Shown here piece by piece: positions 8,092 through 34,113 of a DNA stretch of 44,823 nt. Under the pieces are notes generated by a model that ran no database searches, was not told where the DNA came from, and worked only from the letters and a program-made list of their open reading frames with translations. The first letter of the stretch is position 1. Each line of letters begins with the position of its first letter. A program made the translations under genes and the position numbers. This stretch comes from a virus: IMG/VR virus record IMGVR_UViG_3300042888_000786, positions 1 through 44,823 of that record. One strand, given 5' to 3'.

Positions 8092-8352
8092 TTACTTCTT
8101 TTTGTCAACTATTGCCTTCGCTCCGGCCACCGCACAGGCCGAACAGTTATTGAGCAACTTGATATACTCAGAGTCCGCCTCCTTGTTCGTGAAGACCATA
8201 ATGTTGTCGTCATTGTCAGGCATCTTCAGGTATAAAACTCCGCCTATCCCATAATGCTCCAAGTTTAACAGAAACGCTCGGGCATGACCCTCCATCTGTT
8301 CTGCGGCGTGAGCCGCTAGAACTCCATTTTTTTTATTTGGCTTCTTAGGCAT
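8092..8352 (-). CDS. Hypothetical 86-aa protein
   Basis: I take the start as the ATG at 8352 ('MPKKPNKKNG'), which overlaps the upstream gene's stop by eight bases; the longer in-frame version runs far back into that gene. The basic N-terminus is followed by a compact domain ('FLLNLEHYGIGGVLYLKMPDND', 'NIMVFTNK') ending in a Cys/Ala-rich helix and a Lys tail. I recognise no family. Second gene of the late operon. Confidence 0.65.
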   Translation of the reverse strand: MPKKPNKKNGVLAAHAAEQMEGHARAFLLNLEHYGIGGVLYLKMPDNDDNIMVFTNKEADSEYIKLLNNCSACAVAGAKAIVDKKK

Positions 8353-8806
8353 AGATTCGGCCTCGTTCGTCGACTCGGTTGCGGGAGATGAAGCCCTCGG
8401 AGGACTCTTCGACATCGAGAATAAGGTTTAGACGCATATGGGTATTGTCACGGACCTTGACTTTGACCTTCTGACCACGCACCTCACAGTCAACGAGACG
8501 CTTATTGGGATACTTACGCTTGACAACCCCTAGGCATTTCACGATTTGCTTCGGGGCGACCACGGCAGGGGGTGGAGTCACCGGTGCGGAACCACCAGAT
8601 ACGAACTCAGGGGCGGGCTGGAGGCCTTTTGACGACAGTAAGGCTATCACCCCCTTCATCGTCCAGTAAACAGTCGCAGGACGGCTCGAAGATTCAGCCA
8701 CAGTCATCCAGTCAACGCCCACTTGATATGTGTCCGACTTCCGAGCAAGTATCAAATCAACCTTGGTGAACGGATACTCGGCAATAATTTGTTTCTCTTT
8801 GAACAT
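8345..8806 (-). CDS. First gene of the late operon, unknown; possible DNA-binding or regulatory protein
   Basis: The most likely start is the ATG at 8806 ('MFKEKQIIAEYPF'), giving 153 aa. Alternatives are ATG 8830, which adds a CxxC (MCVVC), and GTG 8881. The N-terminal 70 residues look like a small alpha/beta or HTH-like domain ('VDWMTVAESSSRPATVYWTMKGVIALLSSKGL' pattern). A Pro/Ala/Val linker follows, then a basic beta-rich C-terminal domain ('RGQKVKVKVRDNTHMRL'). No family is recognised. It is the first gene after the origin-like element at 8.89-9.00 kb, so it is well placed to be a late regulator. That role is inference from position only. Confidence 0.6.
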   Translation of the reverse strand: MFKEKQIIAEYPFTKVDLILARKSDTYQVGVDWMTVAESSSRPATVYWTMKGVIALLSSKGLQPAPEFVSGGSAPVTPPPAVVAPKQIVKCLGVVKRKYPNKRLVDCEVRGQKVKVKVRDNTHMRLNLILDVEESSEGFISRNRVDERGRIYA

Positions 8807-8885
8807 GGTCGTCCCACAAACTACACACATACCCTCACCTGTCGAATTAAAAATCCATACCCCCCACCTATTTTCTATCACCGCC

Positions 8886-8998
8886 CTGTATCTTTATATA
8901 CTATTACTATCTCTATTACTATATGGTGCCGGAAAACTGGCGGGGGGCCGCCGGAAAACTGGCGGGGGGGGTGCCAGAAAACCGGCGGGGGTAGGGGG
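8886..8998 (-). other. Second origin-like element (inverted copy): three iterons plus AT-rich tract
   Basis: Read on the minus strand, this is a row of iterons, each a C-run followed by a 14-bp near-palindrome, ending in an AT-rich tract. On the plus strand the cores are GCCGGAAAACTGGC at 8928-8941 and 8950-8963 and GCCAGAAAACCGGC at 8973-8986, spaced 22-23 bp and each followed by 5-8 Gs. Next to the first core lies ACCATATAGTAATA (minus strand, 8927-8914), identical to the base sequence that follows the iterons inside the initiator gene. The AT-rich tract continues with matching ATATAAAG. The element lies between the late operon and the plus-strand gene at 9497. It could be a second origin or a regulatory target of the initiator. 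Confidence 0.75.
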
Positions 8999-9097
8999 TA
9001 TTGATACACGATAGTCAAGTCTTTTTACCAAAAATTATGCAAGTGAAGATGATTCGCCGCCTGGCCCTCGTCCGGTAGGATTCGACCCCCTCCACCC

Positions 9098-9119
9098 CAG
9101 TTAGAATTATTCTAAACTG
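9098..9119. repeat. Imperfect inverted repeat
   Basis: CAGTTAGAAT, one base, ATTCTaAACTG: ten paired bases per arm with one extra A in the right arm. It lies between the origin-like element and the direct repeats upstream of the 9497 gene. No U-run follows, so it is operator-like rather than a terminator. Apart from it, bases 8999-9250 hold nothing I can name. Confidence 0.4.
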
Positions 9120-9251
9120 ATTTTCCGACCCCTGCTGGAATCGATTGTAAGGCCTTTTGACTGTCAGCCCTACCTTTCCCCCTAACTGTCAATGCAAGCG
9201 ATTCCTGGGGCAACTGGGATGCCTTTAAGACCCCATCCCGATTGACAGTGG

Positions 9252-9468
9252 GATTGGGGGATTGACTGGACTGGTGAGGGGTTGAAAATAGTTGAAAATA
9301 GGCATTGAAAGGGGCGGGGGATTCGGATTGAGTGCTGGTGTCGTTCATTGACTGGTCTTAATCAATCCTTCGCCCCCGATTCGGGGCGGGAATCCCAAGT
9401 AGCAAGCCCCGCTTGCGAACAGGTTCCAGTAGGTTCCCCCGATTGGGGGAAACTGGTGAAGGGTTGAA
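9252..9468 (+). repeat. Direct repeats and hairpins upstream of the 9497 gene
   Basis: GATTGGGGGA followed shortly by ACTGGTGAGGGGTTGAA occurs at 9252-9286 and again, with one change in the second part (GAA for GAG), at 9441-9468. A smaller tandem TTGAAAATAG repeat follows the first copy. Between them lie two short hairpins: CGCCCC/GGGGCG (9371-9388) and GCAAG/CTTGC (9402-9416). Together they suggest a regulatory leader for the plus-strand gene at 9497; promoter hexamers are not clear. Confidence 0.5.
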
Positions 9469-9496
9469 CCGACCGATTGATAGTGACCCCACAAAA

Positions 9497-9844
9497 ATGG
9501 CGGACTCCAAAAAGAAGGTTCTCTCGCTCGAACAGTATCGAGCAAATCGGGCAAAGGAAGCGAACCCCGAACAGGTTCGACTGGTCGAAGAAATTGACCA
9601 GTATCAAGACAAGGGTGCAGGTAAGATGGCAATCCGTGCCCGACTGGTCATCGGTGGAAAAGTCCTAGGTATCGTGCTGGTCAGGTTCGAGGACTTGGAC
9701 GATTGCAAGGGTCAGTGGACTCCCGCTGTCATTCGCTGGAAAGCGGATTCGGATTCGGTGAAGTCCTTGATTGAGGCAATCGAGGAAAAGGGTTGCGAAC
9801 TCCCGCCCGAACAGCGGACGGAAAAGGAAGAATCCTCCGAATAA
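9497..9844 (+). CDS. Hypothetical 115-aa protein, isolated gene with its own terminator
   Basis: Starts at ATG 9497 ('MADSKKKVLSLEQYRANRAK') after an ACAAAA leader. An upstream in-frame start at 9413 would place codons across the repeats and is less likely. The product has a charged N-terminal helix, a beta-rich middle ('MAIRARLVIGGKVLGIVLVRFEDL') and an acidic tail ('RTEKEESSE'). I recognise no family. It is the only plus-strand gene in the control region, runs toward a strong terminator 14 bases after its stop, and lies close to the inverted origin-like element. That suggests an independently controlled, perhaps early, regulatory or anti-host gene. Function not known. Confidence 0.7.
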   Translation: MADSKKKVLSLEQYRANRAKEANPEQVRLVEEIDQYQDKGAGKMAIRARLVIGGKVLGIVLVRFEDLDDCKGQWTPAVIRWKADSDSVKSLIEAIEEKGCELPPEQRTEKEESSE

Positions 9845-9857
9845 TCGGATTCAAGCA

Positions 9858-9885
9858 AGACCCCTAGAAATAGGGGTCTTTTTTT
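9858..9885 (+). terminator. Intrinsic terminator after the 9497 gene
   Basis: A perfect 9-bp stem AGACCCCTA/TAGGGGTCT closed by a GAAA tetraloop and followed by a run of Ts. It lies 14 bases after the stop of the plus-strand gene, the standard place for a rho-independent terminator. Confidence 0.9.
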
Positions 9886-10043
9886 GTGCCTATTTCCTGG
9901 CCGTCCGGCGCCGAGGGGATTGCTCAATTTCGATCAACCCGGCTTGACTGGAATCCCAGTGGCCCCGGAATCCTGGATTTGCCCCAGTCCGACTGTCATT
10001 CATCTTCCTCCGGCACTAGTAATACTGTAAAAGCGTTACTACT

Positions 10044-10136
10044 ATTAATTCATTAAATGCATTAAATCATTAAGTGCATTAGTTCATTAAATACATTAAC
10101 TCATTAAATGCATTAGTTCAGTAATTGCATTAAATG
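10044..10136. repeat. Array of 17-bp tandem repeats, about 5.5 copies
   Basis: Successive units start at 10044, 10061, 10078, 10095 and 10112, with a partial unit at 10129. The first is ATTAATTCATTAAATGC, and later units vary at a few positions (for example ATTAGTTCATTAAATAC). The exact 17-bp phase across five units and the AT-rich content resemble plasmid iterons or a partition-type binding array. The rest of 9886-10300 holds no gene I can support. Confidence 0.85.
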
Positions 10137-10300
10137 GTAGTGTTGATTGGGTTATTTGATCACTGTCAATGCTTGTAAATGGTTCATTTAATCAGTCTTT
10201 CCCTTTAAAACCAATAGTGGAATGATGCCGGCACATCCAGGATTAGGAACCGCGTATTTTGACAGATACTACATATCAAGGATAACAAGCAGGCACAAAA

Positions 10301-10337
10301 AAGGGGCATTCCTAGTGCCCCTTGTGTTTTTATTTTT
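10301..10337. terminator. Bidirectional intrinsic terminator
   Basis: Stem AAGGGGCA (10301-10308) / TGCCCCTT (10316-10323) with a 7-base loop. T-rich sequence follows on the plus strand, and a run of As precedes the stem, giving Us on the minus strand. It can stop rightward transcription from the control region and leftward transcription leaving the gene at 10465. Confidence 0.8.
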
Positions 10338-10339
10338 TT

Positions 10340-10366
10340 ATTATTGGTATAATCAATACCAATAAT
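10340..10366. repeat. 27-bp inverted repeat with perfect 11-bp arms
   Basis: ATTATTGGTAT, five bases, ATACCAATAAT. Arms are perfect. It lies directly next to the bidirectional terminator and about 100 bases beyond the stop of the minus-strand gene at 10465. No T-run flanks it, so it looks like a protein-binding site or an extra 3'-end hairpin. The rest of 10367-10464 holds nothing I can name. Confidence 0.65.
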
Positions 10367-10464
10367 TGTATTCGAGTTCTGCTTCTCCTCGTAGAATTAG
10401 ACACTCAAGCCAATGCTGGTAGATGTAGTAACTCCGGATATGCTCATCCAGTTGAACTGAATTA

Positions 10465-10854
10465 TCAGGGTAATTCATTGAATGGATTGACTTTAGCCTT
10501 TGTTAGTTTCAAGTAACGCTTGGCATTATACTGTTTCATGTATTGCTTTCGTTTGAAGTAATACTCCTTTTTATCTTTTGCTTTAGTTAGACGTTTTCCT
10601 GCCGGACCACCAAGTGAAGCAAGAATAGAACTCTCCAATTTAGGCTTTTTCCGTTTTGCTTCAACTCGATCGTTTTCAGCCTTCTTCGACTGCTGCTGTT
10701 TGTTCCAATCTTCAGTAGAAATCATTTTATACATCACTACTGGTTTACCCAACACTTCAATTGCTTTAAACTTAGGCTTCATTGACTTCTTCAAAGTCAA
10801 CTTACACACGGCATCTAGCATTTGAATTGGGACGTGTAATCGTTTCGGGGTCAT
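10465..10854 (-). CDS. Hypothetical basic 129-aa protein
   Basis: Lys-rich (many KK pairs), with an N-terminal ordered segment ('RLHVPIQMLDAVCKLTL') and a strongly basic C-terminal half ('KAKDKKEYYFKRKQYMKQYNAKRYLKL'). This suggests nucleic-acid binding, but no family is recognised. It is the last gene of the accessory block, separated from the amidoligase gene by a hairpin and ending near a bidirectional terminator. The start ATG at 10854 has an AACTAAT leader with no Shine-Dalgarno. Confidence 0.65.
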   Translation of the reverse strand: MTPKRLHVPIQMLDAVCKLTLKKSMKPKFKAIEVLGKPVVMYKMISTEDWNKQQQSKKAENDRVEAKRKKPKLESSILASLGGPAGKRLTKAKDKKEYYFKRKQYMKQYNAKRYLKLTKAKVNPFNELP

Positions 10855-10877
10855 ATTAGTTGGATTTGTAGGGTTTA

Positions 10878-10903
10878 GGTAGCCACCGGAATTGATGGCT
10901 ACC
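10878..10903 (-). other. Intergenic hairpin between the amidoligase gene and the 129-aa gene
   Basis: Perfect 8-bp stem GGTAGCCA/TGGCTACC with a 10-base loop, 15 bases after the amidoligase stop. There is no U-tract. It may be a weak terminator, an RNA-processing site or a 3'-end protector. Confidence 0.6.
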
Positions 10904-10917
10904 CTTGCCCAGTTGAA

Positions 10918-12387
10918 TTACTCTACTCCGTTATCAATGGACTGAAAAGCCTTTGCGTAATTAGCGAAATTAGGCAAAGACTGGACACTGTGGGATAGGT
11001 AGGTGGACTCGAATTTGAGGATTCGCTTAAACACGTAATGCTTCAAACCAATGTCGGCATCGGATTCCATGAACTCTTCAAGGCTACCAACACTAGTGTA
11101 AGGTTTAGCCAAGTATTGCATGAACGCACACCAATACTTCAACTTGTAGAAGTTGAGTGTTGGCATACCCAGTCGCACTTCGACAGTTTGATGCTCCGAG
11201 ATACATTGAGTATTTACAGCAGTGTAGCGATTCCCCTGATGCTCTCGGTCGATGCCACAGTAGGTATTGTGTGCTCGGGTAAACGATACGGTTCGATGAG
11301 CCCAGGTATTAAGAGCATCACGGATTTTGCTAGCAGTTCGCATGGCAGATTGAGTCGTGCGGTGACGCATATCAATATGCACATGATTTCCACAACTGTT
11401 ATTAACACCGGCACCATTAGAAGTCATGGACTTCAGCACTTGCTCCATGTTCTTCCAATCGTTGTTTGACGAGCCATTGATGAACCACGTCAATTCCTGG
11501 TATTGGGCGAGTTGTTCAGAATCGCGATTAGGACGAATGCTACCATCACCCTTAAAATACAACCACGGGTGAACAGGGTAATCCTCGTGGTCCCATGAAA
11601 CAATATCACTACCAGCACTAGCAACAAACTCCAACTCGATTCCTAGGCATTCACCGGAAGGACGAAGACGATGAGCGATAGTGGCCTGAGGAACAGTCAA
11701 ACTGTTGTTCCAGCGGTGCGGTCGAACACTAGTAATGTTCTGAAGCATATGATTGAAGCGTTGACCCAGCGTCATATTCCCAGTGGAACGAGAATCACGG
11801 GTTCGCTCCTGATTACGGCGATGGTGGATTCGGCTAAACCAGCGACAGATTTGAATGATGTTGCCGTGCAAATCAAGGATTTCTTGACCCACAGTCTTTA
11901 CATCAAACGTGTTTTGCTGTTGATACTCGACTTCGTTAAACGTGAAACTGTTCTGTTTCATGCGGTCCACCATAAGGTAGCGGTCATAGGTAAAGCAGTC
12001 TTGAATCATCTTATGATGCTTACCGATATAAGAAAGCAGGTTATTCGACGAATCGTCGGACAACTTGATTTTGATCAATTGCGTAAGCATAGCACAGCGA
12101 CTGTTGAGGGTATCAACAGAAATGCTTGCACGATGGCCACGCTCGAAATACTGGTGTCCACCAAGTGCTACCTTGATGAGAACCGGATTGTTTCGATAGG
12201 CAACAGGAATGCTATTCCATGCCGAGATACGGGACTGGTTGAATTCCTCACGGCGAGGAATATTCATACCGATATTAGTCCCATGAACCATCATTCCATA
12301 CACTTCCAACTGTTTCTGCCGGAGCGTAGGTTTGCTCGAAAGGAGCAGTTCTACTGGTGCCGGGTTTAGGGTTTCTTCTTGACTCAT
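10918..12387 (-). CDS. Amidoligase (Amidoligase_2 / COOH-NH2 ligase family)
   Basis: A 489-aa protein whose C-terminal half carries the motif string of the putative amidoligase family. This family is related to glutamine synthetase and glutamate-cysteine ligase and forms amide bonds using ATP. Visible motifs are 'GIELEF' 249-254, 'KGDGSI' 279-284, E298, 'NSCGNHVHID' 330-339, 'RY' 387-388 with N392, and 'TVEVRLG' 401-407 containing E403 and R405. All positions expected for ATP/metal binding appear intact. The first 240 residues match nothing I know and may recognise the substrate. The next gene upstream (12570-13631) is a class II glutamine amidotransferase, the partner expected to supply ammonia. 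The substrate cannot be read from sequence. Confidence 0.82.
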   Translation of the reverse strand: MSQEETLNPAPVELLLSSKPTLRQKQLEVYGMMVHGTNIGMNIPRREEFNQSRISAWNSIPVAYRNNPVLIKVALGGHQYFERGHRASISVDTLNSRCAMLTQLIKIKLSDDSSNNLLSYIGKHHKMIQDCFTYDRYLMVDRMKQNSFTFNEVEYQQQNTFDVKTVGQEILDLHGNIIQICRWFSRIHHRRNQERTRDSRSTGNMTLGQRFNHMLQNITSVRPHRWNNSLTVPQATIAHRLRPSGECLGIELEFVASAGSDIVSWDHEDYPVHPWLYFKGDGSIRPNRDSEQLAQYQELTWFINGSSNNDWKNMEQVLKSMTSNGAGVNNSCGNHVHIDMRHRTTQSAMRTASKIRDALNTWAHRTVSFTRAHNTYCGIDREHQGNRYTAVNTQCISEHQTVEVRLGMPTLNFYKLKYWCAFMQYLAKPYTSVGSLEEFMESDADIGLKHYVFKRILKFESTYLSHSVQSLPNFANYAKAFQSIDNGVE

Positions 12388-12470
12388 GTTTTTGTTTTAT
12401 TTTGGGTTTTCGTCTCTTCCGGGTTCCACGAAGTTGTGGGATTGTCCGAATTCAACAGAAAGGAGGGAAA

Positions 12471-12505
12471 GTTTTACATCACTATTTCTAGTGATGCTTT
12501 AAAAC
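12471..12505 (-). other. Intergenic hairpin between the amidotransferase and amidoligase genes
   Basis: Core CATCACTA/TAGTGATG, a perfect 8-bp stem with a GAAA loop on the minus strand, extended by GTTTTA/TAAAAC across a 3-base bulge. The loop and its closing pairs are the same as in the terminator at 9858 (CTAGAAATAG). It may attenuate transcription between the two genes. The remaining bases of 12388-12569 are an A/C-rich leader. Confidence 0.65.
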
Positions 12506-12569
12506 TCAATTTAGTTCTGTTTTTGAACTATGGTAATTGATGAATTAAAGATTTGTGAGAAGGCCAGGA

Positions 12570-13631
12570 TTAGTAGCCGTAGTCCGAATCCTTCCAAGGC
12601 TTGACTTGCTTCCGTTGATTCTTTTTCGATCGTTCCTTGGATTGCTCCATATAAGCATCTAGTATGGCTTGTTCTTCCGCATCAACTACATCGGAAGGAG
12701 TAGCAGGAGGAGTGCTAGTAACGACAGAAGGAATAGGAGTAGCAGGTTTAGAGTAACTCCCATAACCACCATATCCATGCACTCCGGCAGAACCAAGGCT
12801 TCGATAAATACCAGCAGTTGAAGCATAAGACATTTTGTTGTCGAACTTGGGAAACTCCACGGAGGAGATTTCACCATTATCATAAAACACATGCTTTACG
12901 TAATCTGCTAGCATCATAGGAGTGCTAATGTTAGCGTTTTTGATCGAATTAAAGTCGCACAACATCTTCGTCAATTCCTCGCAATGCGACTTATCAGTGC
13001 AAATGACGTAGGAATCGAGTTCGACGATATAGGACATATATAGCGGTGCTTTGTTATCACGAAGCACAAACATATTACCTAATGGGTCAATTCCGATAAC
13101 AGCAGCATAACCGGAAATCCCGTCCTTGAAGGATTGCTCGCCGTCAAGGTGAAGGAAGCAATTCAACAGATGCTCGGAATCACAGGTCGTATGAAGCGGT
13201 AGTTTTACACCGGACCACTCAACGATACCATTATGAGCGATCGTCCAAGTGCCGTGTTCGTTCATTCCAGTGAACGGATGCGTATTCTCAATTGTCTTAC
13301 CACAAGTAGCAGTGCGACCATGAGCAATGAAGCATCCCTGGATTGCACCTTTCTTGGGTTTTACCCCGGCAGTATCAAAATCGATTCCCTCGATTAGTTT
13401 GGTTCGGATATTGCTCTTAAGCATATCAACGCTTTCTTTTAGGGTGCCAAGACCAGCGACATAATCCGCCGAAAGGTAGCGTTCGGAGTATTGACCGCTT
13501 TGGTGCTTTAGGGAAAAGCCGAAACCGTCCTTTTGGGAGGCTCCGAGCAATTCACTTGACCGCTTAACTAGAAGCGATGCTTGCTTGCTGTTTTTAGTCG
13601 AAACACGACTGATTGCGATTAACTTACACAT
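12570..13631 (-). CDS. Class II glutamine amidotransferase (Ntn hydrolase)
   Basis: A 353-aa protein that would release ammonia from glutamine. It begins MCKLIAIS, so Cys2 becomes the N-terminal nucleophile after Met removal. The other glutaminase residues are visible: 'HGRTA' with R106, 'NTHPF' 117-121, 'AHNG' 132-135 with the oxyanion N134-G135, and 'CDSEHLL' with D151. The glutaminase domain ends at about residue 230, and no synthase domain follows. Instead there is a Gly/Tyr/Ser-rich and Pro/Thr-rich low-complexity stretch (270-325) and a basic tail. It therefore needs a partner, and the neighbouring amidoligase is the obvious one. The leader is A-rich without Shine-Dalgarno. Confidence 0.85.
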   Translation of the reverse strand: MCKLIAISRVSTKNSKQASLLVKRSSELLGASQKDGFGFSLKHQSGQYSERYLSADYVAGLGTLKESVDMLKSNIRTKLIEGIDFDTAGVKPKKGAIQGCFIAHGRTATCGKTIENTHPFTGMNEHGTWTIAHNGIVEWSGVKLPLHTTCDSEHLLNCFLHLDGEQSFKDGISGYAAVIGIDPLGNMFVLRDNKAPLYMSYIVELDSYVICTDKSHCEELTKMLCDFNSIKNANISTPMMLADYVKHVFYDNGEISSVEFPKFDNKMSYASTAGIYRSLGSAGVHGYGGYGSYSKPATPIPSVVTSTPPATPSDVVDAEEQAILDAYMEQSKERSKKNQRKQVKPWKDSDYGY

Positions 13632-13663
13632 ATGTTTTTGTTGTTTTGTTGGTTTCCACCTTT

Positions 13664-13695
13664 ACTGGGTCCGGCAGGATTGCCGGATTACCAGT
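13664..13695 (-). other. Intergenic hairpin upstream of the amidotransferase gene
   Basis: ACTGG and CCGGCA pair with TGCCGG and CCAGT around a 4-base loop, with a small internal loop. It lies between the stop of the 91-aa gene and the leader of the amidotransferase gene, and no U-run follows. It is the third gap in this block to hold a strong hairpin. Confidence 0.55.
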
Positions 13696-13710
13696 TCTAG
13701 CGGGAAAGGA

Positions 13711-13986
13711 TTACTTGGTAGAGTTAGAGGATTTGCCGTTGAGCAGGAAAACGATCTTTTGCCAGATAGAAACCTTTTTGACGTAAGAATCAATTTCGGT
13801 TTTCAACTCTTCGATGTATTCACGCAGTTCCTGGTTCTCGGAACAGATGAATTCGTTGGTTTCCTTCAAGTCGATGAAGTCCCGCTTCAGTTGAATATGG
13901 TTTTTGACATATTCCTTGATACGCTCGGGACTCATCTCATAGATGGATTTCCGCTTTTTGATGTTGATGGATTTGCAGTTACACAT
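13711..13986 (-). CDS. Hypothetical 91-aa coiled-coil protein
   Basis: Start taken at ATG 13986 ('MCNCKSINIKKRK') after an AAAACAAAAAAC leader like its neighbours; the longer frame would begin before that leader. The N-terminus is basic with a CxC. Residues 20-75 are a probable coiled coil ('LRDFIDLKETNEFI', 'QELREYIEELKTEID'), followed by a short hydrophobic stretch 'IWQKIVFLL' near the end that could touch a membrane. No family recognised. First gene downstream of the tRNA/14.3-kb segment in the accessory block. Confidence 0.65.
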   Translation of the reverse strand: MCNCKSINIKKRKSIYEMSPERIKEYVKNHIQLKRDFIDLKETNEFICSENQELREYIEELKTEIDSYVKKVSIWQKIVFLLNGKSSNSTK

Positions 13987-14150
13987 GTTTTTTGTTTTTT
14001 GTTTTTTGGGTGGAACTTCTACCATTTGCATTAATACAATACTTCGATCATTGCACGACTTGTGCTAATGCACCCGGAGCATTTAATATAAGCATAGGTT
14101 TGATTCACCTCTCTAATGTATCAATTCTTTTGAAACACTCAATCACATAA

Positions 14151-14254
14151 TCATCTTTTTTCTACCTGATACTTGAATTCTACTAATTCGACTATTTTCC
14201 ACCAAGGGATATTTTCATCTTTTTTCTACCTAATACTTTTACTTCTAGTAATTG
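14151..14254. repeat. Imperfect direct repeat of about 40 bp
   Basis: TCATCTTTTTTCTACC plus a following RATACTT and TACTAATT/TAGTAATT-like stretch occurs at 14151 and again at 14215, 64 bp apart. The segment is AT-rich and lies between the 77-aa gene and the 91-aa gene. A duplicated regulatory site is possible. The rest of 13987-14150 contains only short dyads such as GTGC-TAAT-GCAC and no gene. Confidence 0.5.
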
Positions 14255-14256
14255 CA

Positions 14257-14490
14257 TTAATCCAGGATACGCTTACAACTATCATTTGCATCAATCAAGA
14301 ACCCTACTGATTCATCATTTGAATCTGAAAGGCAAAACACTTCTAGTTTGCGAGATGATAGCAAGTCAAAGATTGCTTGCGATTTATTCAATGCTTCTGA
14401 GATCAAAAATGCACCTTTATCCTGGATTGGTTCCGGGGCCGGCATCACTTGCATTTCTGACGTTGCTTTTGTTTGTGAGATTGCTTGCAT
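14257..14490 (-). CDS. Hypothetical 77-aa protein
   Basis: Start taken at ATG 14490 after 'CAAAACACCAA', the A/C-rich context typical of this genome; a TTG start at 14538 is possible but less convincing. The C-terminal 50 residues look globular ('GAFLISEALNKSQAIFDLL', 'LEVFCLSDSNDESVGFLID') and the N-terminus is Gln/Thr/Pro-rich. No family recognised. It lies just downstream of the three-tRNA cluster. Confidence 0.5.
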   Translation of the reverse strand: MQAISQTKATSEMQVMPAPEPIQDKGAFLISEALNKSQAIFDLLSSRKLEVFCLSDSNDESVGFLIDANDSCKRILD

Positions 14491-14639
14491 TTGGTGTTTT
14501 GTGGAATTGCTTGGCCGGAGTTTTTTGTTTTCCGGCAACTGTTTATGTTTTTCGTCCGCTGGCGTAGGCCGGCAGTTGTTGTTTTAGTTATAGCGTTACA
14601 ACTCAACTTTCATTTTTCTAGTTCCTCTAGTAAAACTGG

Positions 14640-14711
14640 AGCATCGGGCGGGACTCGAACCCGCAACATCCTGCTTACAAAGTAGGTGTTCTACCATTGA
14701 ACTACCGATGC
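14640..14711 (-). tRNA. tRNA-Thr (anticodon UGU)
   Basis: Acceptor GCATCGG/CCGATGC, D-arm GTTC/GAAC, loop TTTGTAA giving anticodon TGT, and T-arm GCGGG-TTCGAGT-CCCGC. 72 nt including discriminator T, no encoded CCA. The anticodon stem has one A-C mismatch. It reads ACA. Confidence 0.93.
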
Positions 14712-14717
14712 AAAGTG

Positions 14718-14790
14718 TAGGCGTGAGGGGATTCGAACCCCCGACTTAAGCCTTATAAAGACTCCACTCTAACCACTGAGTTACACGCCT
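14718..14790 (-). tRNA. tRNA-Ile (anticodon UAU)
   Basis: Acceptor AGGCGTG/CACGCCT, D-arm ACTC/GAGT, loop TTTATAA giving anticodon TAT, and T-arm GGGGG-TTCGAAT-CCCCT. 73 nt, no encoded CCA. The anticodon stem uses two G-U pairs. It reads the usually rare Ile codon AUA. Confidence 0.92.
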
Positions 14791-14795
14791 GTAAA

Positions 14796-14866
14796 TACTC
14801 CAACTAGGATTTGAACCTAGACTAGAAGGACCAAAACCTTCCGTGCTACCATTACACTATTGGAGT
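14796..14866 (-). tRNA. tRNA-Gln (anticodon UUG)
   Basis: Acceptor ACTCCAA/TTGGAGT, anticodon stem GAAGG/CCTTC, loop TTTTGGT giving anticodon TTG, and T-arm CTAGG-TTCAAAT-CCTAG. 71 nt, no encoded CCA. It reads CAA. Confidence 0.92.
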
Positions 14867-14940
14867 GAGAGGGACGGCCCTCGGGCGATTGCTATCAGTT
14901 ATAGCCCTCTTGGCCTTGGGTTAATTACTCCCCATTATAA

Positions 14941-15447
14941 TCAAGGCTGGCGTTTGCTATATTGCATTACGACTTCCTTACCACCTACATACACCACTTC
15001 GAATTCTTCCCACAGTTCGAACTCATTTGTTGAAACCAGTTCGAACATAATGTCCGGATACTGATTGGAGATTTCCTTCAGCCAAGCGATGGGGGGCTTA
15101 CTGCGAGTTTTGAACTCATATGAGACAGTGGTATCATCCTGCATCACGATATTGACATCAGTAGCATCAGAGATGCAACCCCAGTTCTTCATAGTGTATT
15201 CGTATAGGCTACGGCAACCAGTGACTTTAGCGCATTGCTCGATGGTGTATTCATCATCCTGCCCCAGAGTATCAACAAGCATATCGGGGATAGGAGCGTG
15301 AGTATAGAAGGTAAGAGGAGACATATCATCTGGGTCTTCCAATTCCTGGACGATTTCAAGTAGCGAGATGAGGTCTTGCTTCTCATCGTTGATAGTGCAG
15401 ATGGACAGGTTGTTGTATGCCCACTCGATATTGATTTTGTTGCTCAT
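14941..15447 (-). CDS. Api92-like (YubB/DUF1281-type) ferredoxin-fold protein
   Basis: A 168-aa protein with the pattern of phage and plasmid Api92-like proteins. It has a helical N-terminus and 'NWGCISDATDV' at residues about 87-97, followed by a beta strand with 'VSYEFKTRSKPPIAWLKEISNQYPD' (split here as a pattern, P-P and W-L conserved) and 'FELVSTNEFELWEEF' before a final Gly strand. The 'F.T...PP..W' and 'YP...F.L' spacing is what I recognise. The biochemical role is unknown for the family. It is the first accessory gene upstream of the tRNAs, and its start has an SD-less leader. Confidence 0.6.
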   Translation of the reverse strand: MSNKINIEWAYNNLSICTINDEKQDLISLLEIVQELEDPDDMSPLTFYTHAPIPDMLVDTLGQDDEYTIEQCAKVTGCRSLYEYTMKNWGCISDATDVNIVMQDDTTVSYEFKTRSKPPIAWLKEISNQYPDIMFELVSTNEFELWEEFEVVYVGGKEVVMQYSKRQP

Positions 15448-15490
15448 AGTAATGTTGTTAGGTTGTTGAGTTGATTTGTTGAGTTGAATT

Positions 15491-15700
15491 TTAGTATCCG
15501 TTCATGTTGTATTGCATGAAATCATCTTCGTCCGTCCAGCCCTGCTTATTGAACATGGAGGTTTCGTAGATTAGTTTCAGTGCTTGCTGGCGGGACTTTT
15601 CAGTAGGGACTTCTCCCTTGAAATACTTGTTAAGGACTTCCTTGAACACTGCGTTCTCTTGTTCGTAGTGTTGGTTTTCCGGCAGTTCTTCATTACTCAT
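15491..15700 (-). CDS. Hypothetical 69-aa acidic protein
   Basis: A small acidic protein ('MSNEELPENQHYEQEN'), helical in the first half, ending in 'GWTDEDDFMQYNMNGY'. The leader AATACAACACT before ATG 15700 matches the style of neighbouring genes. No family recognised and no membrane or signal segment. It lies downstream of a hairpin-rich gap. Confidence 0.6.
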   Translation of the reverse strand: MSNEELPENQHYEQENAVFKEVLNKYFKGEVPTEKSRQQALKLIYETSMFNKQGWTDEDDFMQYNMNGY

Positions 15701-15761
15701 AGTGTTGTATTATTGGTAGAAGGGAAACTGTAAAGGGGCTTGCTTATGCAACTTGCGTCAT

Positions 15762-15858
15762 TGGTCAATCGACCTCCGAACCCCCTCGTCAGTCAACCGC
15801 AGTTTCAACGTGCGGTTCGTTACGAAACTAAAGGATACCTGCCATCTCCGAACTGGCA
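15762..15858 (-). ncRNA. Candidate structured RNA element in a 172-bp gene gap
   Basis: Four local hairpins stand in a row: GGTC/GACC (15763-15774), AACCGCA/TGCGGTT (15795-15817, 9-base loop), TTCGT/ACGAA (15816-15826) and TGCCA/TGGCA (15840-15858). They fill most of the gap between the 154-aa gene stop and the 69-aa gene start. No ORF or tRNA fits. It may be a structured leader, a processing site or a small RNA; this is inferred from dyads only. Confidence 0.4.
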
Positions 15859-15872
15859 AGTAAAATTAAGGA

Positions 15873-16337
15873 TTAATTTGTCGGATTCGTCGTGCTGATG
15901 TAGCGAAGAATATGCTGAAGGACAAACATACGATATGTCATATTGTTCGGGATGTTATCAGCATACGGATTGGCTTGAATCATCAGATTGTCGACTTCAT
16001 CAGACTTGAGATGGCGAAGTTCCTTCAACTTAAGGTAAGCCTTACGTTGCTTTTCATAAGCCATAACGAGTTTCGAGCGAGACACAGAAACAGTGTCCGG
16101 CTCGGTTCCTGGGATTGCAGTAAGGAACATGGACTTATTAATCTTGGGTTCCTTGCAGAACTCGAGATACGAAATCGTGATGGTCTTACCGAATTCCTTA
16201 GTTGTGATATTCAAGAAGTCCGCTTCGGACGTGAACAGAGAGTTGAAGCGAGATGCTTCACGGCTGTTGAGTCCCTTGACCTTTGCGAAAAGGAACATAG
16301 GGGACGACTTGATTTCCGGCGTTAGTTGCTTGCTCAT
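15873..16337 (-). CDS. Hypothetical 154-aa protein
   Basis: Start at ATG 16337 ('MSKQLTPEIKSSPMF'), one base after the stop of the preceding gene, the same TAA-T-ATG arrangement seen at 7922. The protein has a mixed N-terminal domain ('MFLFAKVKGLNSREASRF', 'EFGKTITISYLEF') and a Lys/Glu-rich helix ('SKLVMAYEKQRKAYLKLKEL'). I recognise no family. It probably shares a transcript with the genes at 16339-17626. Confidence 0.65.
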   Translation of the reverse strand: MSKQLTPEIKSSPMFLFAKVKGLNSREASRFNSLFTSEADFLNITTKEFGKTITISYLEFCKEPKINKSMFLTAIPGTEPDTVSVSRSKLVMAYEKQRKAYLKLKELRHLKSDEVDNLMIQANPYADNIPNNMTYRMFVLQHILRYISTTNPTN

Positions 16338-16338
16338 A

Positions 16339-16779
16339 TTAGTTTTTGTTTTTGTTGGTGGGAAGGGGCTTCTTCTTTGTTTTACCATTCTTGGAAGACT
16401 TGTCAACAGGGTTCTTTACGGAAACCTTGGCTTTCTTCTTAAGAGTCTGGGAGAGTTCTTCAAAGAGTTTCTTTTCAATTTCGTCGTCGATGATGCCTTC
16501 GTGACGAAGCATATCGCAACCTTGGTCATACAGTTTTCGGAACTGTTCAATATCCTTAGATAGAGAAAACACAGTCATGATACCATACTGCGGAAGACCG
16601 CATTTGAGTTCTTCGTCGTGAATCAGTCGCAGGATTTGCCAAGCGTTAAAGCGAGAAATCACACCTTGATTAATCGCATGAAGGATACCAATCGGTTCTT
16701 TCTCTACCAGAACATTGCTGGTAAATACGAACGGAGGAATACCCATGTCCGAATCTGTTTCTTCTTTGTTATTTGTCAT
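16339..16779 (-). CDS. Hypothetical 146-aa protein with basic tail
   Basis: N-terminal 110 residues appear folded ('GILHAINQGVISRFNAWQIL', 'IMTVFSLSKDIEQFRKLY'), followed by a Lys-rich tail of about 40 residues ('KKKAKVSVKNPVDKSSKNGK'). Basic tails of this kind often bind nucleic acid, but no family is recognised. Fourth gene of the leftward accessory block. Confidence 0.65.
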   Translation of the reverse strand: MTNNKEETDSDMGIPPFVFTSNVLVEKEPIGILHAINQGVISRFNAWQILRLIHDEELKCGLPQYGIMTVFSLSKDIEQFRKLYDQGCDMLRHEGIIDDEIEKKLFEELSQTLKKKAKVSVKNPVDKSSKNGKTKKKPLPTNKNKN

Positions 16780-16794
16780 ATGTGTTTGGGGAAA

Positions 16795-17157
16795 TTATTT
16801 GTTCTCGTGCTTGAAGAACTGTTCCATTACGGACTCAAGAGCGTGCTTAGTGTTCTGCATCATATTGAGAGTGTCAATGCTTTGTTTCGAGCAGTCGGAG
16901 AACTCTTGCTTCCAATGAGCGACAGTCTTGTTGAGGTTGATGTTCTCAACAGTAAGGTCGGTGATTACCTTTTGAGATGCCTTCCACAGCGATTCATGTG
17001 CGTCCAACTTGACCTTGGCATCCTTGAGTTCGGCATCGAGGCGGGCGACAACTCGCTCAGCCGCATCAAGCATCTTGATTGCGTTAGGTCCGGTAAGGGT
17101 TTCTTCCTTTTTCGGGAAGATAAACTGATTGAGTTCGTTACTGTTGTTTTGGGTCAT
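16795..17157 (-). CDS. Hypothetical 120-aa coiled-coil protein
   Basis: Almost all helical: residues 30-115 form a likely coiled coil ('MLDAAERVVARLDAELKDAK', 'DLTVENINLNKTVAHWKQEF'). The start overlaps the end of the HTH gene by 20 bases, so the two are translated together. A partner or oligomerisation protein for the HTH protein is possible but not shown. Confidence 0.65.
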   Translation of the reverse strand: MTQNNSNELNQFIFPKKEETLTGPNAIKMLDAAERVVARLDAELKDAKVKLDAHESLWKASQKVITDLTVENINLNKTVAHWKQEFSDCSKQSIDTLNMMQNTKHALESVMEQFFKHENK

Positions 17158-17626
17158 TTTCGTTGGTTAGGGTTGGTGTTGCATCTACCAACTTACTAAC
17201 CTTTGCTTCCGTGTCAATGTCGAAAGCACGATTAAGTTCGTCCTGCGTAATCTTCAGTCGAGTCTCGATACGAACAGTCGGAGCGTCAGCCAAGTCTCTA
17301 ACCTTGTCGATGGCGATAGCGATAGCCATAGGCAGTTGCCCGATAGGGATGCTTTCTACGTTCTCTGATAGTCTGGCCGCCCCCTTGGAAACAAAGTCAC
17401 CCAGAAGCCCTGCCACCTCTCGCTTCCACGAACCCAGTTCCAGTTTTCCGTCGCCTTCCATCTGTTGTCTTACGGAAACAATTGTTGACTTCCTGACGCT
17501 TACTATCTTTGCAGTCTCCTCACAACTCTTCCCATCCAGGATTAGTTTCTCTGCAATCTTTCTTACCGGAGCCGGAAGACTCTTGGTAGGGTCATTAAGT
17601 GATTCGTTATTTGCTTGATATTCCAT
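17138..17626 (-). CDS. HTH DNA-binding protein, candidate regulator or small terminase
   Basis: 162 aa from ATG 17626 ('MEYQANNES'); a TTG start at 17665 would overlap the divergent RusA gene. Residues about 22-60 form a helix-turn-helix of the TerS/Sigma-like type ('CEETAKIVSVRKSTIVSVRQQM'). Next comes a conserved-looking helix pair 'IPIGQLPMAIAIAIDKVRDLAD' with 'APTVRIE', a pattern often seen in phage small terminase-like proteins. It is the first gene of the leftward block and starts only 23 bp from the rightward operon, a good position for a divergent regulator. It is also a candidate for the missing small terminase. Confidence 0.65.
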   Translation of the reverse strand: MEYQANNESLNDPTKSLPAPVRKIAEKLILDGKSCEETAKIVSVRKSTIVSVRQQMEGDGKLELGSWKREVAGLLGDFVSKGAARLSENVESIPIGQLPMAIAIAIDKVRDLADAPTVRIETRLKITQDELNRAFDIDTEAKVSKLVDATPTLTNENDPKQQ

Positions 17627-17649
17627 GATGCTTGATTTAGTAGGATAAC

Positions 17650-18081
17650 ATGAGCGAAATAGCAATGGAAGTCAATATGATTCCCACGAAGGCCACACAC
17701 CAGTCTTCCTTGAGAATAATGAAAAGCAAATCTGGTCGGATGTTTGTTGGCAAGTTTGCGAAGAGCAGCATAAACTCCTGGATTCAAGAATTCGAGTTAA
17801 ACATTAAACGCTATCGTCCGGAGAATCCTTGGGATGGTCCGGTTCAAGTATTTATAGAATGGAGATTCCCATACAACAAGTCAACTCCGAAGAAGTATCT
17901 TCATCGAGACGAATGGAAGACAACTAGACCCGACTTGGATAACATGGAAAAGGTGATTTTGGACTCCCTTACCAGAACTGGGTTTATTGTTGATGATTCA
18001 ATTATATGCAGCAAGACAACTACTAAAAAGCACTCAAGCAACCCAGGAATCTCCATAAGATTAATCAAGATTCCCGCTTGA
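17650..18081 (+). CDS. RusA-family Holliday junction resolvase
   Basis: A 143-aa endonuclease that cuts four-way junctions during recombination and before packaging. The RusA signature is clear: 'TRPDLDNMEKVILDSL' with D95 and D97, and 'VDDSII' with D115-D116, followed by 'KTTTKKHSSNPGISI'. Length is near the family norm of about 120-140. The first gene of the rightward recombination operon; its start faces the HTH gene across 23 bp. An internal ATG at 17665 is an alternative start. Confidence 0.9.
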   Translation: MSEIAMEVNMIPTKATHQSSLRIMKSKSGRMFVGKFAKSSINSWIQEFELNIKRYRPENPWDGPVQVFIEWRFPYNKSTPKKYLHRDEWKTTRPDLDNMEKVILDSLTRTGFIVDDSIICSKTTTKKHSSNPGISIRLIKIPA

Positions 18082-18125
18082 CCCAGTGGGTTAAATATGG
18101 ATACTGCGTGCTCATCCCTACATAC

Positions 18126-18938
18126 ATGAGCACCCCTAACGGACAGTTAATCAACAATATCCATCAAGTAACCTATGACGGATGGACGGGCATCAACGCT
18201 TCTTCGTTGAAAAAGTTTATGGTCAGCCCTATGCACTACAAGGATTGGGTTGATAAGAAAGATAGCGAACCCACTAGCGATGCCTTCCGATTCGGCACGG
18301 CTTTCCATATGGCAGTCCTTGAACCAGACCGCTTCGCAAAGCACTTCATTCAAGCACCAGAAGTCGACCGACGCACGACTGTTGGTAAGGCTACTTGGGC
18401 AGAGTTCCAGAGTAAGTTGAATTTCTCCGGCGACAACTATCTAACCAAGTCTGAATACGACTCGCTTGCCAGTATGATTTTCTGCGTCAACGCCAACAAG
18501 TTCTGGAATGAAATCAAGTCTGACAAGGAAAGCGAGTATCGTGAAGCAGGCTTTGAATGTGAGTATCTCGGTGTCGAAATGAAGGGACGCATTGATTACT
18601 TCAATAAGGACAAGAACGTAATCATTGACTGGAAGACTATCAACGATACTCCCACCAAGCGAACTGTTAAGAACGAGATTTACTCTAAAGGTTATGACGT
18701 GCAGAACTTCATTTACCAGAAGGGTGTTGAAATCGTCACCGGCGTTAAGCCGAAGTTCTACTTTGCTTTCATCGAAAAGAAGGCTCCTCATTCTATCGCT
18801 TTCTACGAACTGCCGGAATGGCGAATGAATGAAGTGAAGGAAATGGTGGACGTCGAGTTGGTCCGAATGGAGAATGCAAAGAAAACCAATTTCTACGCTG
18901 GACTCCCCAGCGAGAATTGTCCTATGATGCTTGAATGA
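18126..18938 (+). CDS. RecE-like PD-(D/E)XK exonuclease
   Basis: 270 aa from ATG 18126 ('MSTPNGQLINN'); a TTG start at 18078 is less likely. Residues about 54-63 'AFRFGTAFHMAV' and 152-171 'MKGRIDYF...VIIDWKT' give the nuclease core, with D157, D168 and K170 as the metal-binding set. The 'YDVQNFIYQKG' helix (Q193, Y197) follows, as in phage exodeoxyribonuclease VIII-type enzymes. It should resect double-stranded ends to make single strands for the ERF protein at 20341. Its stop overlaps the initiator start in an ATGA. Confidence 0.88.
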   Translation: MSTPNGQLINNIHQVTYDGWTGINASSLKKFMVSPMHYKDWVDKKDSEPTSDAFRFGTAFHMAVLEPDRFAKHFIQAPEVDRRTTVGKATWAEFQSKLNFSGDNYLTKSEYDSLASMIFCVNANKFWNEIKSDKESEYREAGFECEYLGVEMKGRIDYFNKDKNVIIDWKTINDTPTKRTVKNEIYSKGYDVQNFIYQKGVEIVTGVKPKFYFAFIEKKAPHSIAFYELPEWRMNEVKEMVDVELVRMENAKKTNFYAGLPSENCPMMLE

Positions 18939-19621
18939 GCGACAAGCAACCAATGTTTTCAGGGGTATTCATTCCTCGTGAAGTCTTACTGGACGCAGAC
19001 ATTTCTGCGTCTGGTAAGATTATCTTTGCCGTAATCCAGTCTCTAGACAACGAGAAAGGGTGCTTTGCGAGTAATGCGTATATCGGCCATATGCTCGGAC
19101 TGTCGGAATCTTCAGTTCGTGCAAGCATCGGGGACTTAGTTAAGAAGAATTACATTAGCCGTGTGGTCAACGAATGTGGCCTACGCACCATTCGCACCTG
19201 TTCGACGGCTTCCTTCTTACCCCCCCAGCAGATTTCTAGCACCCCCCGCCAGATTTCTAGCACCCCCCCGCCAGAAAACAATCGCCCCCCCGCCGGAAAA
19301 CTGGCACCATATAGTAATAAAGATATTAATAAGGATATAAAGACACTGATGTTGCCCCCTCTGCCTCATTCTGATTCCTTCCACAAGGTCTGGGATGATT
19401 GGGTAGAGTATCGCAAGGAACGCAAGAAACCCCTCACTCCAACAACAATCAAACAACAACTCGAATTCCTCTCCAACCAAAACGAACATGACGCAACCCA
19501 ATCAATTATTCTCAGCATCCGCAACGGATGGCTTGGTATCTTCCCTCCTAGCGGGACTACCAGTAAACAAGCAAAGTATCAATCAAAGCCCCTCACAGCC
19601 GAAGACCATAATGCGTTCTAA
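18935..19621 (+). CDS. O-like replication initiator with internal origin
   Basis: A 228-aa protein with a winged-helix N-terminus (residues 1-85; 'NAYIGHMLGLSESSVRASIG' then 'LVKKNYISRV'), typical of phage replisome organisers. A Pro/Ser-rich linker at about 90-125, with repeated 'QISSTP', is encoded by the iteron array. A 'SNKDINKDIKT' stretch is encoded by the AT-rich tract. The C-terminal domain ('FHKVWDDWVEYRKERKKPLTPTT') probably binds the helicase loader. This architecture, origin inside the initiator gene, is that of lambda O. The next gene is a DnaC-like loader, as O is followed by P. It should bind the iterons and recruit the host helicase. Confidence 0.85.
   Translation: MSDKQPMFSGVFIPREVLLDADISASGKIIFAVIQSLDNEKGCFASNAYIGHMLGLSESSVRASIGDLVKKNYISRVVNECGLRTIRTCSTASFLPPQQISSTPRQISSTPPPENNRPPAGKLAPYSNKDINKDIKTLMLPPLPHSDSFHKVWDDWVEYRKERKKPLTPTTIKQQLEFLSNQNEHDATQSIILSIRNGWLGIFPPSGTTSKQAKYQSKPLTAEDHNAF
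19219..19345 (+). other. Predicted replication origin: four iterons plus AT-rich unwinding tract
   Basis: Iterons start at 19219, 19241, 19262 and 19284 (21-22 bp apart). Each has 6-7 Cs followed by a 14-bp core: AGCAGATTTCTAGC, GCCAGATTTCTAGC, GCCAGAAAACAATC and GCCGGAAAACTGGC. The last core abuts ACCATATAGTAATA and an AT-rich stretch to about 19345. Iterons then AT-rich DNA inside the initiator gene is the known lambda-type layout. A homologous inverted copy lies at 8886-8998. Confidence 0.85.
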
Positions 19622-20294
19622 CAAGTGTGAATGCGGTGGCAGTCGTATTCCTATGACTGACGGCTCCAAGATTATCTGGCCGGACTACTTCTGTTTCTTC
19701 TGCAAGGACAAGTATGATATCAGCCGTGACGCACGATATCGTGAACTCAACTGGGCGGTGGAACCCATCGGTATGCCAGTAGTGTTCCAAGAAACAGTCA
19801 TTGAACAGATTCCCTGCCCCAAGATGCGTGATATCGCATCCAACTGGAATTCCTGGGGTAATCGTTCCTTGTTACTTCACGGAACTACCCGACTTGGTAA
19901 GTCCCGAGCCGCATACGAAGTAGCACGTCGCTACTGGAAGTCTCAATACAAGAAGCAACAGTTCATCACGATGCGTAAGTTCGAACAGAACATCGAGGAA
20001 GGCTTCTCCAAGTTTAACCACAACCAACTGGTTTCCGGTATGATTAACATCCCATTCCTGTTCATTGACGACTTGGGCAAGGAAAAGATGACTGCCCGAA
20101 TCGCTTGCGACCTGTTTGCCGTCATTGACGAGCGAACCATCAATCACCGCCCGACCATCATTACGACTAACTTTACGTCCGCTGGACTGTTGAGCCGTTT
20201 CGATGATGTCGAACTTGGCAAAGCACTGATGGGTCGCTTTAAGGACTTCTTCGACCTTGTGGGGGCGACGAAGAAAGATGAAAATATCTCTTGA
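19611..20294 (+). CDS. DnaC-like AAA+ helicase loader with zinc-binding N-terminus
   Basis: 227 aa from ATG 19611, which overlaps the initiator's last codons by 11 bases; a start at 19488 would overlap by 134 and is unlikely. The N-terminus has CxC and CxxC (C6, C8, C28, C31), a probable zinc knuckle. The AAA+ core has Walker A 'GTTRLGKS' 91-98, Walker B 'FLFIDDLG' with D153-D154, and sensor I 'TIITTNF' (N187). It should load the host DnaB-type helicase at the origin bound by the initiator. The phage has no helicase or polymerase of its own in this window. Confidence 0.88.
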   Translation: MRSNKCECGGSRIPMTDGSKIIWPDYFCFFCKDKYDISRDARYRELNWAVEPIGMPVVFQETVIEQIPCPKMRDIASNWNSWGNRSLLLHGTTRLGKSRAAYEVARRYWKSQYKKQQFITMRKFEQNIEEGFSKFNHNQLVSGMINIPFLFIDDLGKEKMTARIACDLFAVIDERTINHRPTIITTNFTSAGLLSRFDDVELGKALMGRFKDFFDLVGATKKDENIS

Positions 20295-20340
20295 CCCAGC
20301 CAATAACTTAAGCATATATACCTACTCACCCATCCATAAC

Positions 20341-21102
20341 ATGACCCAAGATAATCCTACCAACGACTACTACGAACTTGCTCTGGCTGAACGCACCAAG
20401 CAACACGTGGCTTTGCAGAACGCTCTCGTTTCTGCTATCGCAGAGACTACCGACGTTCACGCAGACAGCAACAATCCGTTCCACAAGAGCAAGTATGCTT
20501 CCCTCAACGCCCACCTTGCGTTGATTAAGCCTATCTTCGCCAAGTATGGTCTGGCTATTGTCCAGTTCCCTATTGGTTCTGAAAACTCTGTCGGCATCAA
20601 TACTGTCATTATCCATAAGGATGGTGGTCGCTTTGAAGAGTCTGCCTACATTCCGTGTCCCGCTGGAATTGATGGTCAGAAGGCTGGCTCCATCTACTCC
20701 TATCTCCGTCGTTACGCTCTGGCTGCTGTTGCCGGTGTTGCTACTGAAGATGATGATGCCAACATTGTAAGTGTCACTAGTGCCCCTACCAAGTCTTACG
20801 CTTCGGCTCCTACTGCTGGTAAGTTCATTCCCAACCCGAAGGCTTCTACTGCCCCCACTGGTGAGGTTGACTTCTCCCTTCCTGTTCCGTTCGGCAAGGC
20901 AAAGGGCACGGCTCTGCAAGACCTCCCGCTTAATGACCTCAACTACTGGGCGAATACGTGGGAACCCAAGCCTTGGGAAAAGACCGGCAAGGTAGGAGCC
21001 AAGGACTTGTCGCTCAAGTCGTCTGCACAGGCTCTGTGGGCCATTAAGAATGGTGGCGGTGAAGCCGAGTCTGAACCCACCGAAGACGCTATTCCGTTCT
21101 AA
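20341..21102 (+). CDS. erf: ERF-family single-strand annealing protein with SSB-like tail
   Basis: 253 aa from ATG 20341 ('MTQDNPTNDYYEL'), after an SD-less leader. The ERF core is seen as 'YASLNAHLALIKPIFAKYGLA' and 'GSIYSYLRRYALAAVAGVAT'. It would anneal single strands made by the RecE-like nuclease. After a Ser/Ala/Pro linker comes a second small domain, 'VPFGKAKGTALQDLPLNDLNYW', which resembles the 'FGKYKG..L.DLP..YL.W' pattern of DUF3820 proteins. The chain ends EPTEDAIPF, very like the acidic DDIPF tip of bacterial SSB. No separate SSB gene is visible, so this protein may also recruit SSB partners. Confidence 0.87.
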   Translation: MTQDNPTNDYYELALAERTKQHVALQNALVSAIAETTDVHADSNNPFHKSKYASLNAHLALIKPIFAKYGLAIVQFPIGSENSVGINTVIIHKDGGRFEESAYIPCPAGIDGQKAGSIYSYLRRYALAAVAGVATEDDDANIVSVTSAPTKSYASAPTAGKFIPNPKASTAPTGEVDFSLPVPFGKAKGTALQDLPLNDLNYWANTWEPKPWEKTGKVGAKDLSLKSSAQALWAIKNGGGEAESEPTEDAIPF

Positions 21103-21116
21103 CGAATAATTGATAC

Positions 21117-21188
21117 AGCCCCGTAGTTCAACGGATAGAACACCCGCCTTCTAAGCGGGTTATCTTGGTTCGATTCCAAGCGGGGCTA
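21117..21188 (+). tRNA. tRNA-Arg (anticodon UCU)
   Basis: Acceptor AGCCCCG/CGGGGCT, D-arm GTTC/GAAC, anticodon stem CCCGC/GCGGG, loop CTTCTAA giving anticodon TCT, and T-arm CTTGG-TTCGATT-CCAAG. 72 nt, no encoded CCA. It lies in the rightward operon, away from the other three tRNAs, and reads AGA, a codon I see often in the late genes. Confidence 0.95.
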
Positions 21189-25718: not shown

Positions 25719-26033
25719 TTATTCTGATTTAGAGAACATATTTTTAGCACGACTACTGATAAAGTCAAACAACTCAGGAGCAATAGCCCCAGAGATTGAA
25801 TAAAGGATACCTTTGTAGATTGGCAGTATGTCAATGTAGTAGAGGGCGAAGTATGTTATAACACCCACACAGGCTCCGGCAAACACCTTTCTTCCCCAAA
25901 CAAACACGTGATACTTTTCGTTCTTCATTACCAGACCAACGAAGGCACCAATTGCTCCAAGGATTATAACAACCCATCCGCCAGACTTAAAGTCCGCTAT
26001 GACTGCCTTCATTGACTGGTCATGCTCATTCAT
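25719..26033 (-). CDS. Holin
   Basis: 104 aa with three predicted membrane segments (about 19-36, 49-68 and 73-86), a charged N-terminus and a basic C-terminal tail ('SSRAKNMFSKSE'). Size, topology and place directly before the lysozyme gene fit a class I-type holin that makes the membrane hole. Its start overlaps the giant gene's stop by four bases (ATGA). Confidence 0.8.
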   Translation of the reverse strand: MNEHDQSMKAVIADFKSGGWVVIILGAIGAFVGLVMKNEKYHVFVWGRKVFAGACVGVITYFALYYIDILPIYKGILYSISGAIAPELFDFISSRAKNMFSKSE

Positions 26034-34069: not shown

Positions 34070-34113
34070 TTGCTTATAGTCCTTATTTGTCAATAAATAG
34101 CAAGGATTTAATG

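Follow-up and report, generated by a model that had tools for sequence, protein, structure and literature searches.

A second origin-like element beside the late operon of a phage matches, and evolves in concert with, the origin inside its O-like initiator gene

In this work, the 44,823-base phage record IMGVR_UViG_3300042888_000786 was analysed over its whole length, which is called the window below and W in the comparisons between genomes; IMG/VR records are possibly incomplete. The window carries a lambda-type origin at 19.2-19.35 kb, inside its O-like replication initiator gene, and a similar element at 8.9 kb, upstream of the late operon, 10.3 kb away and in inverted orientation. The question raised by this locus is what role the second element has for the phage. 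Both elements exist, are conserved, have equal phasing and evolve in concert, and each contains a duplex that ranks as the weakest in its genome or close to it. Judging from the DNA alone, the 8.9-kb element is probably a second site at which the O-like initiator of this phage binds and opens DNA, paired with the intragenic origin and serving as a late origin and/or fork block of the type of oriR in Bacillus phage SPP1. An earlier sequence-only reading of this DNA had offered three roles (a second origin, a target by which the initiator switches on late genes, or a pairing site for recombination), and the first of them fits best.

The iteron unit at both sites consists of a C-run followed by a 14-bp dyad core with 5-bp arms and a 4-bp spacer. 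In the O gene, four such iterons occupy positions 19220-19305 on the plus strand (cores starting at 19226, 19248, 19270 and 19292, with 22-bp spacing and a C-run before each). They are followed on the same strand by the AT-rich tract ACCATATAGTAATAAAGATATTAATAAGGATATAAAG at 19306-19346, a probable unwinding element. The lambda-type layout described by the sequence-only reading was thus recovered: the initiator gene contains iterons and then an AT tract, and its neighbour encodes a DnaC-like loader. The second element is on the minus strand, where its three dyad iterons lie at 8928-8998 (cores at 8928-8941, 8950-8963 and 8973-8986), with C-runs that appear as G-runs on the plus strand. Its AT-rich tract, ACCATATAGTAATAGAGATAGTAATAGTATATAAAGATACAG, at 8886-8927 on the minus strand, is the least stable 40-bp stretch of the window. 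A degenerate iteron-like sequence (8860-8884, minus strand) is present on the late-gene side of this tract, and a clear iteron is found there in the relatives G009 and G004. At both sites of the window the cores start 16, 38 and 60/61 bp before CATATA, after which comes the AT-rich tract of about 40 bp. The cores of the second element in its own direction are GCCGGTTTTCTGGC, GCCAGTTTTCCGGC and GCCAGTTTTCCGGC. The four iterons reported earlier for the O gene are present, but only the last of them, with the core GCCGGAAAACTGGC, fully matches the 8.9-kb cores, and the AAAA/TTTT polarity of those cores is the reverse of it. The remaining three O-gene cores are AGCAGATTTCTAGC, GCCAGATTTCTAGC and GCCAGAAAACAATC.

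By aligning the O-gene element (19243-19346, plus strand) with the minus strand of the 8.9-kb element, a local score of 91 was obtained, compared with a maximum of 30 in 1000 dinucleotide shuffles (mean 18.5, standard deviation 2.8). A chance match between the two elements is therefore ruled out, and the homologous inverted pair was located where it had been reported. Furthermore, a blast search of 8886-8998 against the whole record matched only the segment itself and the O-gene array (E 5e-18). The identical 14-mer that had been noticed at both sites, ACCATATAGTAATA, is present as well, but it is not significant by itself because the window has 11 inverted 14-mer pairs. The significance of the match is that of iterons, spacing and AT tract combined.

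Relatives, all of them uncultured phages, were collected by terminase and O-protein searches, and more than 20 whole or near-whole records were read. The second copy was found in ten genomes, the window included (W, G001, G002, G003, G004, G005, G007, G008, G009 and G051), whose O proteins are 52-100% identical to that of the window, and also in the distant relative G019. In these carriers it is placed upstream of the late genes, and its distance from the O gene, measured on the circular map, is 8-12 kb. All close relatives covering the region have both copies, except G053, in which the initiator has diverged. The distribution of the two-copy state calls for two changes on the O-protein tree. 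The second element is also carried by four late-region fragments (L031, L036, L039 and L043), two of which have it in a form identical to that of G005 and G008. At the second site of G009, G004, G005, G007 and G008 there is a further iteron beyond the AT tract, which is then flanked on both sides. The whole element is flipped in G005, G007 and G008, and the direction of the late genes relative to the O gene is unchanged. When viral contigs were searched for GGCACCATATAGTAAT, 24 stretches matched, which is close to the chance expectation. The paired sites of G001 account for two of these matches, and at E 0.01 no relative of the window O protein is encoded in any of the remaining 22 records.

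The two sites also change together. By comparing own-genome pairs of O-gene and second elements with permuted pairs in 11 genomes, a diagonal sum of 729 was obtained against a mean of 536 (standard deviation 40, p ~1e-5). With eight representatives the own-genome pairing gave p 2.4e-4, and p 0.002 when G019 was left out. G002 and G003 have ACCATATAAGACTA at both sites, and G019 has TTCCTACATATAGAA with AGAGGATAG repeats at both, a core unrelated to those of the other genomes. Core and AT tract are 16 bp apart at each of the two sites in W, G001, G002 and G009, and in G007 and G008 this distance is 15 bp at both. Since the match is closer within genomes than between them, the two sites evolve in concert; an old duplication followed by independent divergence would give no better pairing within genomes, and the better pairing counts against it. 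The paired copies that the sequence-only reading had proposed to look for in relatives are therefore conserved and change together, and the claim survives the refuting condition that this reading had set.

Concerted evolution could also arise without any action of the initiator at the second site, if the pair were a recombination pairing site or a duplication that gene conversion kept alike. The phage does encode Erf and RusA proteins, and the copies are similar within each genome. However, the similarity is confined to the iterons, the junction and the AT tract, and G019 has a wholly different core at both of its sites. Moreover, W, G001, G002 and G007 have cores of differing polarity at their two sites (AAAA or TTTT, taken relative to the AT tract and CATATA), which is not expected from block conversion and rules it out as the whole explanation. 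The flips of the short element, with the neighbouring late genes keeping their direction, likewise make the suggested pairing site unlikely, and none of the genomes read had the intervening 10 kb inverted or deleted with breakpoints in the elements. We regard this explanation as very improbable. Because the polarity differs between the sites, the match is better explained by selection for a DNA-binding site common to both than by block conversion, and the pattern suggests that the initiator uses both sites.

The nearest-neighbour stability of 40-mers was calculated for 11 genomes, and in all 11 the AT tracts of both sites fall within the least stable 0.00-0.72%. The second site is the least stable spot of the whole window, and the least stable 40-mer of the intragenic origin, at 19308, is in the lowest 0.02% and is the third least stable spot overall. 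Predicted duplex stability thus points to a probable unwinding element at both sites. This bears on the idea that the second array is a copy-number or titration locus, which would soak up or handcuff the initiator and limit firing of the intragenic origin, as the extra iteron loci of plasmids do, the AT tract being a relic. Two arrays about 10 kb apart could indeed pair, but a pure decoy needs iterons only, and no genome with the element has lost the AT tract, whose spacing is also kept where measured. A lytic phage would presumably also gain little by limiting its own replication, and we consider titration unlikely.

The position of the second element next to the late genes has to be considered as well. 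The first gene of the late operon (8345-8806, minus strand) encodes 153 amino acids of no known family, and its start codon was placed by the conservation of MFKEKQII.... The gene most likely starts at 8806, and with this start the second element is non-coding, as had been claimed. A candidate late promoter, TCGACA-16 bp-TAGTTT (8818-8845, minus strand), matches the consensus weakly, at 8 of 12 positions, and was not flagged by a default promoter scan. A promoter-like sequence of similar type with the same 16-bp spacing occurs in most relatives that have the element. Only about 5-11 nt separate its -10-like hexamer from the first late ATG, and the mRNA of the late genes may therefore have almost no leader.

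Control of late genes by the initiator is a serious candidate, either as the main rival or as a second role of the element. If the element chiefly controlled transcription, the initiator bound beside the late promoter would turn the late operon on, or hold it silent, in response to replication or to the amount of initiator, with the AT tract aiding promoter opening. The element is directly upstream of the first late gene, and the sigma70-like -35 and -10 boxes are immediately on its late side in most genomes. In addition, distant relatives that lack the element have other repeats and AT-rich palindromes there, so the spot may be a regulatory hub. In G010, G011, G015 and G016 the head of the late operon is preceded by an AT-rich palindromic repeat of the TATAATATTTCTTGTAGAGAATATAATA type, the least stable DNA of those genomes, which may mark a site of another kind at this position. 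However, the AT tract lies about 12 to 45 bp from the -35 box, depending on the genome, and the element is flipped in three genomes, which is a poor fit to a fixed activator contact. In G007 no clear promoter was found by a consensus scan. Furthermore, a regulator site needs neither full origin geometry nor the weakest duplex of the genome. Transcription control as the chief function is thus possible, at a limited probability.

Several observations weigh against a second initiator site, or against replication as its main function. The promoter-like sequence abuts the second site, so transcriptional control could be the main job. In G053 the O-gene iteron core is changed to GCAGAAAACTGC and there is no matching second array. 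At the position of its second site (G053 5134-5262) only a C-run/AT/G-run block is seen, with CATATAGTAAT and the 13-mer ATAACTTCGTATA. No second copy was detected by blastn in the distant relatives G010, G011, G013-G017, G022, G023, G026 and G028, and the O proteins of the distant relatives without it are ~30-42% identical to that of the window. C/G-run blocks at the late head of G010, G011, G016 and G026 were rejected as second copies; their cores mismatch those of their own O genes. GC skew, which the sequence-only reading had proposed for mapping replication starts, did not show two origins; it switches clearly at neither site, and gene direction is a confounding factor.

The initiator is encoded on the plus strand at 18935-19621 (228 amino acids) and matches phrog_678 'replication initiation O-like' (E 2e-23) and Pfam HTH_36. 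In its AlphaFold model, a winged helix-turn-helix domain at ~25-88 is followed by a low-confidence linker (91-138) and by a C-terminal helical domain with helices at 147-197; the disordered linker is encoded by the iterons and AT tract of the intragenic origin. The top Foldseek matches of the model were winged-helix regulators and the N-terminal domain of DnaD, every one weak, and no close relative was found among solved structures by sequence search. The next gene encodes a DnaC-like helicase loader (19488-20294, plus strand; phrog_50 E 8e-21, Pfam IstB_IS21). Recombination functions surround this pair on the plus strand: a RusA-family Holliday junction resolvase (17650-18081; Pfam RusA E 5e-20), a DUF3799 or ExoVIII-like PD-(D/E)XK exonuclease (18120-18938; Pfam DUF3799 E 4e-30, phrog_412 E 2e-41) and an Erf-family single-strand annealing recombinase (20257-21102; Pfam ERF E 1e-16, phrog_2324). 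Between the two origin-like sites, an Amidoligase_2 protein is encoded beside a class-II glutamine amidotransferase (10921-13631, minus strand). Elsewhere in the window there are four transfer RNA genes (Thr, Ile, Gln and Arg; 14637-14866 and 21117-21188), a 2687-residue open reading frame, probably for a giant virion protein (26030-34093), and a PAPS-reductase-domain protein within the structural gene region (36924-37724).

What the initiator does at these sites (binding, opening, firing or fork arrest), and in what order, we infer as follows. The initiator would be made early, bind the iterons within its own gene, open the AT tract and, with the DnaC-like loader, start theta replication. As it accumulates, it would also load the second array, which would then either fire as a second origin or hold a nucleoprotein barrier that stalls the fork. 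A stalled fork could be processed by RusA, the exonuclease and Erf, and replication would switch to concatemers beside the late operon that supplies packaging functions. Tentatively, and at a rather low probability, the initiator might even couple replication to late expression, if an origin-type complex at the late promoter both stalled or started forks and switched on the late operon. It would mean that packaging proteins are made only upon the switch to concatemers, and an orientation-flipping, co-evolving second origin would be the hallmark of such a system.

The second element is taken as oriR-like because the window phage shares the SPP1 layout together with analogous RusA, Erf and exonuclease functions. 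In SPP1, gp38 has two binding regions, oriL within gene 38 and, 12-13 kb from it, oriR between late genes. Theta replication starts at oriL, and in the proposed model a fork stalls where gp38 occupies oriR; cleavage of the Holliday junction, resection by an exonuclease, annealing and the synthesis of concatemers would then follow (PMC6316719, PMC3485210). Compared by published layout, both phages have one origin within the initiator gene and a second, similarly organised one (repeats and an AT-rich unwinding element) in a late intergenic position, 12-13 kb away on the circular map of SPP1 and 10.3 kb in the window phage. In both, the initiator gene is followed by that of a helicase loader, and a RusA-type resolvase, an annealing recombinase and a 5'-3' exonuclease are encoded. 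Unlike SPP1, the window phage has a DnaC-like loader, and none of its scanned proteins was recognised as a replicative helicase; its elements are inverted, the second one flips among relatives, and it abuts the first late gene. The best matches of its terminase and initiator in the annotated phage collection are distant (~32-33% identity over the full length). The paired element was not found by the same test in the SPP1-related phage PM1. The arrangement is unusual, as had been stated, but it has a precedent in oriL/oriR, which the sequence-only reading did not name. SPP1 was the only described phage case of such a layout found in the literature, most subscription papers being outside the search. 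The role of SPP1 oriR so far rests on one phage and a proposed model. The lineage of the window is separate from SPP1 and has many natural variants, with matched core changes at both sites, orientation flips and, in G053, no recognisable matching array. It adds comparative evidence that a second initiator site is selected, and the role of a second phage origin, as late origin, fork block or late-gene switch, becomes directly testable.

The origin of lambda has four dyad iterons and then a ~40-bp AT-rich tract inside gene O, with the helicase-loader gene adjoining (PMC5043065). The window O-like gene shares the four iterons, the AT tract and the neighbouring loader, but its product is a diverged O-like protein and its iteron core is different. 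A second copy was not found in lambda by the same test. Lambda and 13 annotated phages with O-like initiators were compared, and Lysinibacillus phage vB_LspM-01 (MF893271) was the only one in which a second iteron site was convincing; Fusobacterium phage FNU4 gave a second match that was weak and was dismissed as AT-rich noise. The replication-initiator-like gene of vB_LspM-01 has internal iterons (core TATTCAGGAAACTGAATA), and a second iteron site lies 6.5 kb away, inverted and non-coding, in AT-rich intergenic DNA. This second site, at MF893271 27428-27459 (L267 ~1029-1060), matches the iterons of the initiator gene and is unannotated, and the searches made found no description of its function. 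vB_LspM-01 differs in being an unrelated phage, in which the genes downstream of the second site are not clearly late. As an isolated phage with a named host, it offers a workable laboratory system.

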